From positions 1-36,660 of the forward strand of contig JACMND010000002.1 in the NCBI GenBank assembly GCA_014378705.1: 36,660 nt of DNA, read 5' to 3'. Below, one piece after another: positions 441 to 4,764 of the stretch (position 1 is the stretch's first letter; the number at the start of each line of letters is the position of its first letter). Source of the DNA: Pedobacter sp. GTDB taxonomy: Bacteria; Bacteroidota; Bacteroidia; Sphingobacteriales; Sphingobacteriaceae. The position numbers and the translations under genes were made by a program. Below the pieces are notes generated by a model. The model made no database searches, had not been told where the DNA came from, and saw nothing but the letters and a program-made list of their open reading frames with translations.

Positions 441-1805
441 ATGACAGAATCAATTAATCCAACGACTGGAAAGCCTAATAAATCTTATTCATCTCATACC
501 AAAATTGAAATAGATGACAAAGTTGATCAAACTTATAACGCATGGGATTCATGGAGACAAACTTCTTTTGCAGAGCGTTCTGTGATGATGCGAAATGCAG
601 GTAGAGCTTTAAGAAACAGGAAAGATGAACTGGCTAACCTTATGGCAATAGAAATGGGAAAGCCATTAAAAGGCGGGGTCGCTGAAATTGAAAAATGCGC
701 CGATGCTTGTAGTTTTTATGCTGATAATGCAAAGAGATTTTTACGTGATGAGCCTGTAAAAACAGATGCGGGTAAAAGCTACATAAGCTATCAGCCGCTC
801 GGTGTAATATTAGCGGTAATGCCCTGGAACTTTCCATTTTGGCAAGTTTTCAGGTTTCTTGCTCCGTGCTTGATGGCCGGTAATTGTGGAATTTTAAAAC
901 ACGCTTCAAACGTGCCGGGATGTGCGTTGGCGATTGAAGACATCATTAAAAAAGCAGGCTTCCCTCCTTTTGTATTTCAAACGCTTTTAATTGACAGTAA
1001 ATCGGTAAATGCGGTAATTGAAAACTCTAAAATTTCTGCGGTTACATTAACCGGAAGTGTAGAAGCTGGAAAAAAAATTGCCGAAAAAGCCGGTTCAGTT
1101 TTAAAGAAGACAGTTTTGGAACTTGGCGGAAGCGATGCTTATATTGTTTTAGAAGATGCTGACCTTGACCTTGCTGCTGAAACCTGTGTTAATAGTAGGC
1201 TTATTAATAGTGGTCAAAGCTGTATCGCAGCAAAAAGGTTTATCGTTATGGAGAAGGTTGGAAAGAAATTTATAGAGCTTTTTAAGGATAAGATGTCGGC
1301 TAAAGTTGTGGGAGATCCGCTAAACGACAAAACCGATGTTGGTCCTTTAGCCCGGCTTGACTTAAGAGATGAGTTACACAAACAAGTTGAGGGCAGTATC
1401 CAGAAGGGTGCAATTTGTATACTTGGTGGTAAAATTGAGCCTGGCACACATGCTTTTTATCCGCCTACAATATTAACAAATGTTAAAAAAGGAATGCCAG
1501 CTTATGATGAAGAGCTTTTTGGTCCTGTAGCAAGCATTATTTTAGCCATGAATGAAAATGAAGCTATCAACATTGCCAATGATACTGTTTTTGGATTAGG
1601 CGCCGCAATATTTTCCAGAGATATTGTTAAGGCTGAAGAAATTGCGGCTAAAAGATTACAGGCCGGCTCCTGTTTCGTAAATTCACTTGTTAAATCAGAT
1701 CCGCGTTTACCTTTCGGCGGGATAAAAAATTCTGGTTACGGAAGAGAGTTGGCTGCTTTTGGTATCAGGGAATTTGTAAATATTAAAACAGTTTATGTTA
1801 AATAG
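441..1805 (+). CDS. NAD(P)-dependent succinate-semialdehyde dehydrogenase (Sad/YneI-like)
   Basis: Aldehyde dehydrogenase superfamily enzyme, 454 residues with no signal peptide, expected to be cytosolic. It probably oxidises succinate semialdehyde to succinate, the last step of GABA breakdown. Visible signatures are the PWNFPFWQ cofactor-side motif, LTGSVEAG, the general base Glu227 in LELGGSD, and the catalytic Cys261 in NSGQSC, 34 residues after the Glu as is usual in the family. The overall pattern (ISNPTTGK-like start, LKHASNVPG, LARLDLRDELHKQVE, FGGIKNSGYGREL) follows E. coli Sad (YneI) more closely than GabD. Its 3' end overlaps the convergent DUF3307 gene by 8 bp. A class III aminotransferase at 26655 could supply a semialdehyde, but the two are 25 kb apart. 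Family certain; exact substrate inferred. Confidence 0.9.
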   Translation: MTESINPTTGKPNKSYSSHTKIEIDDKVDQTYNAWDSWRQTSFAERSVMMRNAGRALRNRKDELANLMAIEMGKPLKGGVAEIEKCADACSFYADNAKRFLRDEPVKTDAGKSYISYQPLGVILAVMPWNFPFWQVFRFLAPCLMAGNCGILKHASNVPGCALAIEDIIKKAGFPPFVFQTLLIDSKSVNAVIENSKISAVTLTGSVEAGKKIAEKAGSVLKKTVLELGGSDAYIVLEDADLDLAAETCVNSRLINSGQSCIAAKRFIVMEKVGKKFIELFKDKMSAKVVGDPLNDKTDVGPLARLDLRDELHKQVEGSIQKGAICILGGKIEPGTHAFYPPTILTNVKKGMPAYDEELFGPVASIILAMNENEAINIANDTVFGLGAAIFSRDIVKAEEIAAKRLQAGSCFVNSLVKSDPRLPFGGIKNSGYGRELAAFGIREFVNIKTVYVK

Positions 1806-2529
1806 ACCGCAGTACTGATTCTATTATCCATCCCAAAAAAACAGAAACAGAAAAACTCATTAAAGTGCCAATTAATACATACTCCGTTTTTTTTTGGGTA
1901 TTTGCTTCTTTATCATTATACCTTAAAATAGATTTTGCAGCAATCAATAAACCCACCGCTGTATATTGGCCTATTAGTATAAAAGTTAAAATTAGAAAGC
2001 GTTCAAAAAATCCAATCCACATTCCTGCTTGAGCCAACCCTTCTGCATTCACACCTGCTTCGTCCCGCCATTTTTTGGTTGCCAATCCTACCAAAATACC
2101 CATTGGCCAGGTAATGAAAATGTAGGCAGCCATAACAGCAAGAAACCGAACATTGCTATATACTTCATTTAGTAGTTTACCAGCCTCCTGCAATTTATCA
2201 AATAAAATAATCCATAAAACGATTATCGCCAGCAGGTGTAAAACCTGGTCAATTAAAAAATATAGTACCCTGGCCGGGCGGTAAGATTTCCAAATATCAA
2301 TCAATAAATGTGTTACAAAAATAAATACCGCCAACCACCATTGGCTCCATAAGCCCACTAAAATATAAGCCACAATAGCGGTTATGCCAACGTGAAAATA
2401 CAATGGCAACGATAACCATTTTTTGTTTTTACGGTCTTTTATCCACGAACCTGGTTGAATCACAAAATCGGTTAATAAATGAGCTATTACTAGTTTTATG
2501 AGTACGCTTACTTCTTCCTGTACGATCAT
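1798..2529 (-). CDS. DUF3307 family membrane protein
   Basis: Integral membrane protein of about 243 residues of the DUF3307 family; the function is not established. The N-terminus carries the family signature: a hydrophobic helix ending in HLLTDFVIQPGSW followed by a basic KDRKNKKW stretch. Several further membrane helices follow, including HVGITAIVAYILVGL, WWLAVFIFVTHLLIDIW, a long LLAIIVLWIILF segment, and two near the C-terminus (ILTFILIGQYTAVGLLIAA and VLIGTLMSFSVSVFLGWII). I chose the ATG at 2529; a TTG one codon upstream is also open. It follows the SatD gene by 5 nt on the same strand, so the pair is surely one operon, an arrangement common in Bacteroidota. Its stop overlaps the end of the convergent dehydrogenase gene. 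Confidence 0.85.
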   Translation of the reverse strand: MIVQEEVSVLIKLVIAHLLTDFVIQPGSWIKDRKNKKWLSLPLYFHVGITAIVAYILVGLWSQWWLAVFIFVTHLLIDIWKSYRPARVLYFLIDQVLHLLAIIVLWIILFDKLQEAGKLLNEVYSNVRFLAVMAAYIFITWPMGILVGLATKKWRDEAGVNAEGLAQAGMWIGFFERFLILTFILIGQYTAVGLLIAAKSILRYNDKEANTQKKTEYVLIGTLMSFSVSVFLGWIIESVLRSI

Positions 2530-2534
2530 CAAAG

Positions 2535-3152
2535 CTATATTAAGGTTGAAATATAGTGAATCGCTTTTTCAATTTCTTTCCACTTAGAAAGCTTTATCCT
2601 GTTATTAATTGCAGATTGAACTATCTGTAGTTTATCTGCCATCTGCTGCTGGGTTCTATTTTCAAGCACCAAAAAAATCACTTCAGCCTGATTGCGTGTC
2701 CAGCCAGTAATGATAACATCCATTAATCTGCAAATGATATACAACTGTTCATTTAATTTTTCATCAGACGTAACTATCTTTATTAACTCATCTTGTTCCA
2801 AATTATCAAATATTCTACCTGAAATATGAAACGCTTCACCATCCGAATCTAAAACACTTTTACCTCTATATGCGATCTGGCCAACGCCGATTGACATTCT
2901 AGCATCAAGCATAACTTTCTCTGAAATTTTAAACATTTTAAACCAGCATCTTATCTGTATACAACGCTTTAAAGCTTCTGGCGCCATATCAAATAATAAT
3001 TGAAAACTATCTCCTCTAAATATCTGAGCTTGTTTTATTCCAACCCACGAGGCGAATAAATCCCTGCTCGACTCAATCAATTTTTTCCTTTTCCCTTCCG
3101 TAACCCTGGTAAAACCAATTATATCGCCCGTAATCACAAAAGAATTTTTCAT
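2535..3152 (-). CDS. SatD family protein: cyclase-like domain plus C-terminal helix-turn-helix
   Basis: 205-residue soluble protein of the SatD family, named after a streptococcal acid-tolerance locus; the molecular function is unproven. By eye the first ~130 residues follow the class III nucleotide cyclase plan: ITGDIIGFT with Asp10 (first metal Asp position), FRGDSFQLLF with Asp48 (second metal Asp), ARMSIGVGQI (like RIGIHTG), and GEAFHISGRI (like GxAVNxAAR), where Arg113 is kept but the catalytic Asn is His109. Residues about 165-195 (NRTQQQMADKLQIVQSAINN) form a plausible helix-turn-helix. This suggests a nucleotide-sensing, probably non-cyclising, DNA-binding regulator. It heads an operon with the DUF3307 gene. 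Three 24-bp palindromes begin 8 nt upstream of its ATG, suggesting autoregulation. Family call firm; cyclase relation is my inference. Confidence 0.85.
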   Translation of the reverse strand: MKNSFVITGDIIGFTRVTEGKRKKLIESSRDLFASWVGIKQAQIFRGDSFQLLFDMAPEALKRCIQIRCWFKMFKISEKVMLDARMSIGVGQIAYRGKSVLDSDGEAFHISGRIFDNLEQDELIKIVTSDEKLNEQLYIICRLMDVIITGWTRNQAEVIFLVLENRTQQQMADKLQIVQSAINNRIKLSKWKEIEKAIHYISTLI

Positions 3153-3159
3153 ATATAAA

Positions 3160-3241
3160 ATTATCTATTAAAAATTAGATAATCAAGTATTATCTATCTT
3201 GTAATAGATAATTAACTATTATCTATCTCAGAGTAGATAAC
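3160..3241. promoter_or_regulatory. Triple inverted-repeat operator array (29-bp period)
   Basis: Three copies of ATTATCTA-N8-TAGATAAT start at 3160, 3189 and 3218, exactly 29 bp apart. Arms lie at 3160-3167/3176-3183, 3189-3196/3205-3212 and 3218-3225/3234-3241. The last arm ends in C instead of T; otherwise all six octamers are identical. The loops differ (TTAAAAAT, TCTTGTAA, TCTCAGAG), as do the 5-nt spacers (CAAGT, TAACT), so the arms are what is conserved. The array sits between divergent satD and the arsenosugar operon, its first arm 8 nt from the satD ATG. It reads as a cooperative operator, most simply for the SatD helix-turn-helix. Confidence 0.75.
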
Positions 3242-3316
3242 GTGTTTGTAAAATGTATTTCTGATGAAGCAGAAAAAAAGGTAATTATTGATGTTAAAAC
3301 TATTGAATTATATTAG
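3242..3316 (+). CDS. Possible 24-codon ORF or gene remnant
   Basis: Directly after the last operator arm, a GTG opens a 24-codon frame with the protein-like peptide FVKCISDEAEKKVIIDVKT ending in IELY-stop. No ribosome binding site is evident and the frame is open only from 3212. It may be a remnant of a longer gene or chance; its end overlaps the candidate promoter of the arsenosugar operon. I assign no function. Confidence 0.12.
   Translation: MFVKCISDEAEKKVIIDVKTIELY
3288..3316 (+). promoter_or_regulatory. Candidate promoter of the arsenosugar operon
   Basis: TTG at 3288-3290, 18 nt, then TATATTAG at 3309-3316, one mismatch from the Bacteroidota -7 box TAnnTTTG. It lies 22 nt upstream of the ATG at 3339 and about 50 bp from the inverted-repeat array, close enough for a bound regulator to act on both directions. 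Confidence 0.35.
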
Positions 3317-3338
3317 GCGTAAATAAATAAAAAATAAG

Positions 3339-3671
3339 ATGAACACATATTATAACCCTGAGGATCTGAAGAAATTTGGTAATATCAGCGAATATCAGCC
3401 TGAACTGGCTAAAAAATTTTTCGATTACTATGGCGAAGTTTTTAAAGATGGAGCATTAACCGCCCGCGAAAAATCATTAATTGCCTTGGCTGTTGCACAT
3501 ACGGTACAATGCCCCTATTGCATTGATGCATACTCAACAGATTGCCTTGAAAAAGGATCAAACGAAGAGCAAATGATGGAAGCACTTCACGTGGCTGCTG
3601 CCATACGTGGCGGATCTTCATTAGTTCATGGTGTACAAATGATGAATAAAGTAAAAGAACTTTCCATGTAA
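3339..3671 (+). CDS. Arsenosugar-associated AhpD/CMD-like peroxidase protein
   Basis: 110-residue carboxymuconolactone decarboxylase/AhpD-fold protein. The AhpD-type redox signature is present: LTAREKSLIALAVAHTVQCPYCIDAY with Glu44 and the Cys58-x-x-Cys61 pair, plus an extra Cys69 and His84/His97 in the helical part. Such small AhpD-like proteins recur next to the radical SAM enzyme ArsS in arsenosugar clusters and are named arsenosugar biosynthesis-associated peroxidase-like proteins. The gene is first in a plus-strand operon, with arsS beginning 44 nt downstream. Its role is not proven: it could remove peroxide, act as a dithiol reductase, or keep arsenic trivalent. The family call is firm; the pathway role rests on context. 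Confidence 0.85.
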   Translation: MNTYYNPEDLKKFGNISEYQPELAKKFFDYYGEVFKDGALTAREKSLIALAVAHTVQCPYCIDAYSTDCLEKGSNEEQMMEALHVAAAIRGGSSLVHGVQMMNKVKELSM

Positions 3672-3714
3672 GTTTGGGTTATTCAGCTACTATTAACATT
3701 TAAAAAAATACTTC

Positions 3715-4764
3715 GTGAAAAGTCTTCAGGCATCGCACAATCAACTTTCAGACACTTTTATACAACTAAGGGTATTGAATTCGGCTGACGAAAGTATTGC
3801 GGCTTTACCAAAGTTTCATAAAAAATTAGAATCTGCAGGATTACTTCCCTTTAAACCCGCTACACTTGATACATTACAGATTAACGTGGGCAAAATGTGT
3901 AACCAAACCTGTAAACATTGTCATGTAGATGCCGGGCCGGATCGAAAAGAAATAATGACCAGGTATACAATGCAACAGTGCCTTGATGCATTGGCAAAAA
4001 GTAATATATCTACGGTTGATCTTACAGGAGGGGCACCAGAAATGAACCCTGATTTTGAATGGTTTGTAGAGGAGATCAGAAAATTAGGTCGTAAAGTAAT
4101 TGTACGGTGTAACCTAACCATTATTGTAGCAAATAAGAGATACAATAACTTACCGAAATTTTTCAAAAAAAATCAGGTTGAGGTAGTTTCATCACTGCCT
4201 TACTACACATCCCACAAAACAGATAGCCAACGTGGCGACGGTGTTTTTGATGATTCAATAACGGCTTTAAAAATGTTAAATGAAGTTGGTTATGGGATAC
4301 AAGGAAGTGGTTTAACACTTAATTTAGTTTATAATCCTTCAGGTGCTTTCTTCCCTCCTCCTCAGGAAGGGCTACAAACTGAGTTTAAACATCAGCTATT
4401 GGAAAGGTTTGGAATTGTGTTTAATGAGTTATTCGCCATAACAAATTTACCAATAAGCAGATTTCTTGATTATTTAATGGTAAGCGGAAATTATGATTCA
4501 TACATGGAAAAATTGGTAAATACATTTAACCCGGTGGCTGCGCAAAATGTAATGTGTAAAAGCATGATCTCTGTAGGGTGGGATGGGTATTTGTACGATT
4601 GCGATTTTAATCAAATGCTGGATCTAAAAATTAATAAACCCAACTCAAATCACATAGCCGATTTTAATATTCAGCAGCTCATAAATCGTAACATTATCAT
4701 CAACCAGCATTGCTTTGGATGTACGGCAGGAGCCGGTTCGAGCTGCGGAGGTGAAATAGCATGA
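3715..4764 (+). CDS. arsS: Arsenosugar biosynthesis radical SAM enzyme ArsS
   Basis: Radical SAM protein, 349 residues from a GTG start (no in-frame ATG gives the full N-terminus). The [4Fe-4S]/SAM motif is Cx3Cx2C at Cys62, Cys66, Cys69 (CNQTCKHC), followed by VDLTGGAPEMNP, the usual radical SAM GGE-like element. The C-terminal Cys-rich part has MCKSMISVGWDGYLYDCDF and the family-specific tail CFGCTAGAGSSCGG. ArsS is known to join a 5'-deoxyadenosyl radical to methylated arsenic, making the core of dimethylarsinoyl ribosides. It is the second gene of the operon; its stop overlaps the next start by 4 nt (ATGA), so translation is probably coupled. Identity is strongly supported by the motifs and the neighbours. 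Confidence 0.93.
   Translation: MKSLQASHNQLSDTFIQLRVLNSADESIAALPKFHKKLESAGLLPFKPATLDTLQINVGKMCNQTCKHCHVDAGPDRKEIMTRYTMQQCLDALAKSNISTVDLTGGAPEMNPDFEWFVEEIRKLGRKVIVRCNLTIIVANKRYNNLPKFFKKNQVEVVSSLPYYTSHKTDSQRGDGVFDDSITALKMLNEVGYGIQGSGLTLNLVYNPSGAFFPPPQEGLQTEFKHQLLERFGIVFNELFAITNLPISRFLDYLMVSGNYDSYMEKLVNTFNPVAAQNVMCKSMISVGWDGYLYDCDFNQMLDLKINKPNSNHIADFNIQQLINRNIIINQHCFGCTAGAGSSCGGEIA

Follow-up and report, generated by a model that had tools for sequence, protein, structure and literature searches.

A palindrome array at 29-bp pitch before satD in Pedobacter, a probable operator of the satD-DUF3307 operon

In the window, by which we mean the whole 36,660-nt stretch of Pedobacter sp. DNA that was analysed, satD and the gene of a DUF3307 membrane protein (likely start the ATG at 2529) lie together on the reverse strand, and a divergent set of arsenosugar (ars) genes encodes a peroxidase-like protein, ArsS, a glycosyltransferase and ArsM. 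Before satD sits an array of three palindromes, 29 bp apart from start to start at both intervals (Table 1). The first two are exact and the third carries a single change, its final T to C, which gives the general form ATTATCTA-N8-TAGATAA(T/C); the 8-nt loops differ between the three. This arrangement agrees in sequence and coordinates with that reported in the first-pass annotation, which had, in addition, placed the array 8 nt from the satD ATG; the gap between the start codon (3150-3152) and the array is actually 7 nt (3153-3159).

Table 1. Features of the satD region, in window coordinates; operator and promoter elements are predictions.
Feature	Position	Strand	Description
Predicted operator palindrome 1, satD-proximal	3160..3183	.	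ATTATCTA-N8-TAGATAAT
Predicted operator palindrome 2	3189..3212	.	exact match to ATTATCTA-N8-TAGATAAT
Predicted operator palindrome 3	3218..3241	.	outermost base changed once
satD	2535..3152	-	PF16264; cyclase-fold domain and C-terminal helix-turn-helix
DUF3307 membrane protein, second operon gene	1798..2532	-	PF11750, E 6.3e-24
Candidate satD -7 element	3156..3163	-	TAATTTTA, 7/8 to TAnnTTTG
Candidate satD -33 TTG	3184..3186	-	sits between palindromes 1 and 2

With up to three mismatches to the palindrome allowed, these three sites are the only ones in the window; shuffled windows held 0.57 sites on average and reached three in 1 of 100, in a test that is blind to exactness and spacing. The core TTATCTA-N8-TAGATAA is found exactly at four places in the 3.3-Mb genome, namely the three of the array and C66:3269, and the latter was set aside as a second target because it falls within a 430-aa open reading frame. 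Palindromicity alone, which ignores the similarity between copies, gave its highest mean z at 28 and 29 bp, with few loci individually prominent. As a test it was too weak, and we therefore adopted an array score, which uses 8-nt half-sites at a pitch of 26-31 and lets the second step differ from the first by no more than 1. When the window was scored in 731 tiles, the maximum of the three-copy score, 47.4, fell at the satD array, and the best value elsewhere was 34.1.

The SatD protein matches PF16264 with 32.3 bits over a cut-off of 29 (E 9.8e-8), a family annotated for secretion and acid tolerance and known from the sat genes of Streptococcus mutans. In alignment A2, 60 of 79 sequences match the family too, at E 0.01 (A2 and A4, used below, contain 79 and 65 of the collected homologues). 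An AlphaFold model built on 79 sequences has a pLDDT of 97.6, and its comparison with known structures gives residues ~1-130 a nucleotidyl-cyclase/GGDEF fold. The best match of this domain is 4wpa by Foldseek (E 1.1e-4) and 2qv6 by VIA-align (Z 11.3, rmsd 3.1, 113 aligned), and a profile search matches SatD to Ma1120 (E 5e-5). D48 is invariant and D10 nearly so among the 79 sequences of A2. At the C-terminus the model has a helix-turn-helix (HTH) with helices 153-163, 168-175 and 179-188, of which the last, by its position in the model, is assigned as the recognition helix. Sigma70_r4 matches 34 of the 79 A2 members, and other HTH models match fewer.

At 111 of 114 loci the DUF3307 gene comes directly after satD in the same orientation, the junction being mostly an overlap or a gap of a few tens of nt and never more than 250; in the second set of loci described below, a DUF3307 match is present somewhere in the locus, position ignored, in 38 of 45. 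The model of the protein is all-helical (pLDDT 93.7), and H17, D21, H46, D78 and H98 are among its invariant residues (alignment A4, 65 sequences), a pattern that suggests a metal-binding membrane enzyme. The invariant His and Asp residues sit in or near predicted helices. Neither Foldseek nor profile searches of the PDB returned a significant relative of DUF3307. The PHROG membrane family phrog_2470 is matched at 6e-15. A tblastn search of phages with SatD and DUF3307 gave no match for either protein, and PADLOC holds no model matching one or the other.

Homologues of satD were sought in the genome itself and 40 relatives (9 of 41 with a match), 395 Bacteroidota genomes (105 with a match) and also in 296 Actinomycetota genomes (21 at E 1e-8) and plasmids (15 records at E 0.01). 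GTDB contigs were scanned with a sequence pattern peculiar to the group of the window and gave at least 20 loci. The gene is patchy in the window's genus, with a match in 5 of 20 genomes, own included, one of them at only 31% identity. Duplicates (L006, L016, L017, L135, L136, L154-L158) were left out, together with weak, partial or off-target loci (L015/L125, L159, L161, L181) and L143, which has only 22 nt upstream; L101, also short upstream, was counted in the two-or-three-copy test and not in the three-copy test. The near copies L129 and L130 were both counted, and L041/L061 and other pairs come from one genus.

The array score was computed over the 150 nt before satD and compared with dinucleotide shuffles at a threshold of z>4, with stretches at -330 to -180 as controls. 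The three-copy score (40 shuffles) exceeded the threshold in 84/114 satD loci versus 2/114 controls. With two or three copies allowed (60 shuffles), this rose to 86/115 versus 5/114 in set 1, the Bacteroidota, where two of the five controls (L064, L068) are probably continuations of the array, and the same score gave 35/45 versus 2/43 in set 2. The set-2 arrays come from 7 of 9 plasmid loci, all 16 relatives among the matches listed and 12 of 20 Actinomycetota loci. One haloarchaeal plasmid locus, L132, reached z 8.2 in set 2, and two further ones, closely similar to each other, have two copies at pitch 29 (z 8.6 and 9.2, mononucleotide shuffles). The best three-copy pitch, in the 112 loci with a three-copy z>4, was (28,28) in 54, (29,29) in 47, mixed 28/29 in seven and something else in four. 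At L068 the array before satD is an expanded one, with four or more near-identical 29-bp units, and extends past -180, where its control stretch has a z of 11.0.

While the layout is kept, the letters are not. Four relatives at 54-63% identity have TATCTA/TAGATA half-sites before satD; in more distant relatives the letters of the same layout are different, and they vary by clade (TATCTA, TATCGG, TATTAC, TATAAG, TTTAAC, TCAAG). The absence of arrays before other satD genes, which the first-pass annotation had named as counter-evidence, is thus not what was found. The exact-letter search upstream of these genes that it had suggested would miss most of the arrays, since it is the spacing and the dyad symmetry that are conserved.

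The threshold was not reached at 29 of the 115 set-1 loci and 10 of the 45 set-2 loci. Thirteen of the set-1 misses belong to family f33 (L092-L100, L104-L107) and two to family f51 (L108, L109), and in both groups there is an insertion ahead of a different recognition helix; L118, the other f33 locus, has a normal recognition helix and an array. Judged by eye, several f33 misses may have in common a single upstream dyad like ACGTTGC...GTAACG. Seven of the 29, one of them from f51, pass z>4 over 400 nt under the weaker mononucleotide shuffle: L024, L027, L064, L072 and L074 with z from 4.8 to 20, and L085 and L109 weakly, at z 4.7. Eight are left without explanation (L059, L069, L078, L081, L087, L103, L117, L123). 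The set-2 misses are the plasmid loci L131 and L133 plus eight Actinomycetota loci, five of which (L162, L163, L164, L174, L177) also have no DUF3307 match in the locus; L150 and L165 have an array and no DUF3307 match.

The comparison of arm similarity with protein similarity at 121 array-bearing loci bears on which protein reads these letters. Arm distance correlates at 0.50 with the distance between N-domains and at 0.41 with that between recognition helices. Given the N-domain, the partial Mantel correlation of arm with helix is 0.18, a value reached by none of 500 permutations; the partial correlation of arm with N-domain given the helix is 0.35, and since this is the larger of the two, shared descent accounts for a strong part of the variation in the arms. 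A scan of 190 protein columns with N-domain distance removed ranked 179, 184 and 180 first to third and 181 seventh, all four within the modelled recognition helix; the chance of the helix filling the top three is about 1 in 10,000, if all ten of its columns are among the 190.

Individual residues and letters go together as well. At the 103 Bacteroidota loci, Q179 is found with TAT in 80/82 and other residues with TAT in 1/21; Y183-K184 goes with AAC in 11/11 versus 10/92, R184-R185 with TTAC in 11/12 versus 2/91, and E184-R185 with CGG in 7/11 versus 3/92. Over all 121 loci, Q184-R/H185 goes with AAG in 18/28 versus 6/93, a pairing seen in both Bacteroidota and Actinomycetota. In L041 and L061, KR replaces NQ at 178-179 and TGTTAC replaces TATTAC. 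The pairs are broken in L067, L070, L083, L089 and L147, and the Fisher values for them ignore relatedness, several loci coming from one genus. Read in this way, the arm letters follow the putative recognition helix of SatD itself. The first-pass view of the array as a protein-binding one, with SatD as the protein that probably binds it, gains support from these sequence comparisons.

The position of the array relative to a candidate promoter points in the direction of repression. The satD upstream region contains a TTG-N20-TAATTTTA pair, conforming to the pattern TTG-N20-TAnnTTT, as candidate -33 and -7 elements on the basis of TAnnTTTG, the Bacteroidota -7 consensus. Palindrome 1 lies between the candidate boxes, and its outer arm is overlapped by the candidate -7 element. 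TAnnTTTG itself occurs in the last 110 nt at 44/100 array loci versus 13/99 controls, and at 15 of these 44 loci a distance of 10-12 nt separates its centre from the last dyad of the fit; it is absent there from 56/100, the window included.

We consider it very likely, on the evidence of sequence, that the array serves satD-DUF3307 as its operator, to which SatD would bind in a nucleotide-tuned negative autoregulation; SatD would then be an autoregulator, probably an autorepressor, of its own operon. Computation shows the array itself, the conservation of its pitch and place, its tie to satD and the agreement of arm letters with residues of the recognition helix. Beyond this we infer that SatD physically binds, that it represses and does not activate, and that it does so cooperatively; the nucleotide ligand, the physiological role and the function of DUF3307 are of the same standing. 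The C-terminal HTH of SatD would read one half-site, TATCTA in the window. Successive half-sites, 14 or 15 bp apart, face opposite ways, and the six of them make up a lattice in which each pair takes 29 bp (28 or 29 bp in the relatives); SatD dimers would fill it side by side in a regular rotated series, probably cooperatively. That the pitch is kept despite altered letters suggests protein-protein contact between neighbouring dimers. In the window, palindrome 1 occupies the stretch that separates the candidate -33 from the candidate -7 element, so that bound SatD would keep RNA polymerase out, with negative autoregulation of satD-DUF3307 as the consequence. The cyclase-fold domain, with its conserved aspartates, may sense a nucleotide and then loosen or tighten the grip on DNA.

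The alternative that deserves most attention is that SatD activates the operon from the array, or toggles between activation and repression on binding a nucleotide. At many loci the fitted array extends at least 100 nt upstream of the satD start, which is activator territory too; on the other hand, the proximal site of the window overlaps the candidate -7 box, and the 10-12 nt between TAnnTTTG and the last fitted dyad in 15 of the 44 loci is a typical repressor position, so we regard activation as unlikely. Control of satD through the array by a DNA-binding protein other than SatD is far less probable, even though palindromes could serve any dimeric regulator: the recognition-helix columns of SatD outrank the other scored columns for the arm letters, and the array accompanies satD onto plasmids and into other phyla. 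Still less credit can be given to the idea that the palindromes are RNA hairpins, an attenuator or a stability element in the satD leader. Inverted repeats are able to fold, but here the loops vary while the arms match a protein helix, and the candidate promoter over palindrome 1 implies that most of the array is not transcribed with satD. An Rfam search of 2500-4000 found no RNA family match, a result by which little is excluded.

The least probable of these alternatives is that the main target of the array is the divergent arsenosugar operon, satD being a bystander. The array does sit between the two operons, with 97 bp from its end to the ars start. When the 200 nt upstream of the leading gene were scored at 14 ars loci, however, arrays were present at two, the window included, both with satD adjoining, and the other 12 had none (z at most 2.6), while satD genes in other surroundings do have arrays. 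The array therefore goes with satD, as the earlier annotation had supposed, and its further idea that binding might reach the arsenosugar promoter looks weak. Before the arsenosugar operon, at 3308-3325, lies TTATATTAGGCGTAA, which recurs in the G015 locus and is altered in that of G012 (L183, L184); it is perhaps part of the ars promoter. A short GTG frame at 3242-3316, which ends within this element, is probably not a gene.

The satD-DUF3307 pair is also found on mobile elements. Besides this pair, the 3,770-bp plasmid pEC34A has rop, mobA and one short hypothetical gene; the pair is also present on a 4,424-bp Klebsiella plasmid and on a Vibrio conjugative plasmid. The pair makes up a large share of such tiny E. 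coli/Klebsiella plasmids (1792-3481 of L130, 362-1937 of L129), and in these two loci there are two, perhaps three, AACC/GGTT-type palindromes before satD. The satD region of pEC34A has no near match among 20,395 E. coli records. On a Sphingomonas plasmid (L133, 4069-5609), satD-DUF3307 adjoins annotated Pycsar effector and nucleotide cyclase genes, with a TIR-domain gene ~2.3 kb to the other side; no array was found before this satD (z 0.4). In S. pyogenes, satD is reported to be an essential accessory gene present in only 178 of 249 genomes (PMC11323703), and a gene that is essential yet missing from many genomes is what one would expect if its product represses something harmful.

These observations are compatible with satD-DUF3307 as a module for addiction or defence, and a chromosomal role in metabolism or stress is equally plausible. 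One bolder proposal, which we put forward as doubtful though worth stating, is that satD-DUF3307 forms a two-gene mobile module, widespread among bacteria and archaea and serving neither housekeeping nor acid tolerance, in which nucleotide-sensing SatD, polymerised on its lattice, would restrain a harmful DUF3307 and release it on a nucleotide signal such as that of phage infection. Each lineage would have rewritten operator letters and helix together, and the copies would thus be mutually insulated.

What is new here is not a category of regulation; it is an operator architecture that runs through the family and whose letters change along with the recognition helix. A family annotated for secretion and acid tolerance gains a testable proposed job, that of a DNA-binding autoregulator with a named operator, whose 28/29-bp half-site lattice is kept across phyla and haloarchaea as its sequence diverges with the helix. 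The many natural helix-operator pairs also offer a ready data set from which a code of protein-DNA recognition could be worked out and orthogonal repressors drawn. Two papers treat the SatD family as related to acid tolerance (PMC10326533, PMC11323703), in contrast to the predicted DNA-binding autoregulator of the present work. Neither an operator for SatD nor a DNA-binding role for the family was found among the matches listed in open PubMed Central papers.

Several known systems can be set beside this one. Class III nucleotidyl cyclases, GGDEF domains and GTP cyclohydrolase III have their fold in common with residues 1-130 of SatD; SatD, whose catalytic competence is putative, differs from them in that an HTH is fused to the domain. 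Toxin-antitoxin modules likewise consist of two adjacent co-directional genes, and the predicted operator of satD-DUF3307 similarly precedes the first; that the second gene may be toxic and neutralised by the first is hinted at by the essentiality reported for satD in S. pyogenes. Autorepressing HTH regulators with an operator before their own gene include antitoxins and the Aca proteins. As in those cases, the predicted satD operator precedes the gene of the regulator itself, the operon is short, and a candidate promoter is overlapped. Unlike them, SatD has a putative sensor domain of nucleotidyl-cyclase fold, and the letters of its lattice change across phyla and in haloarchaea without loss of the strict 28/29-bp pitch.
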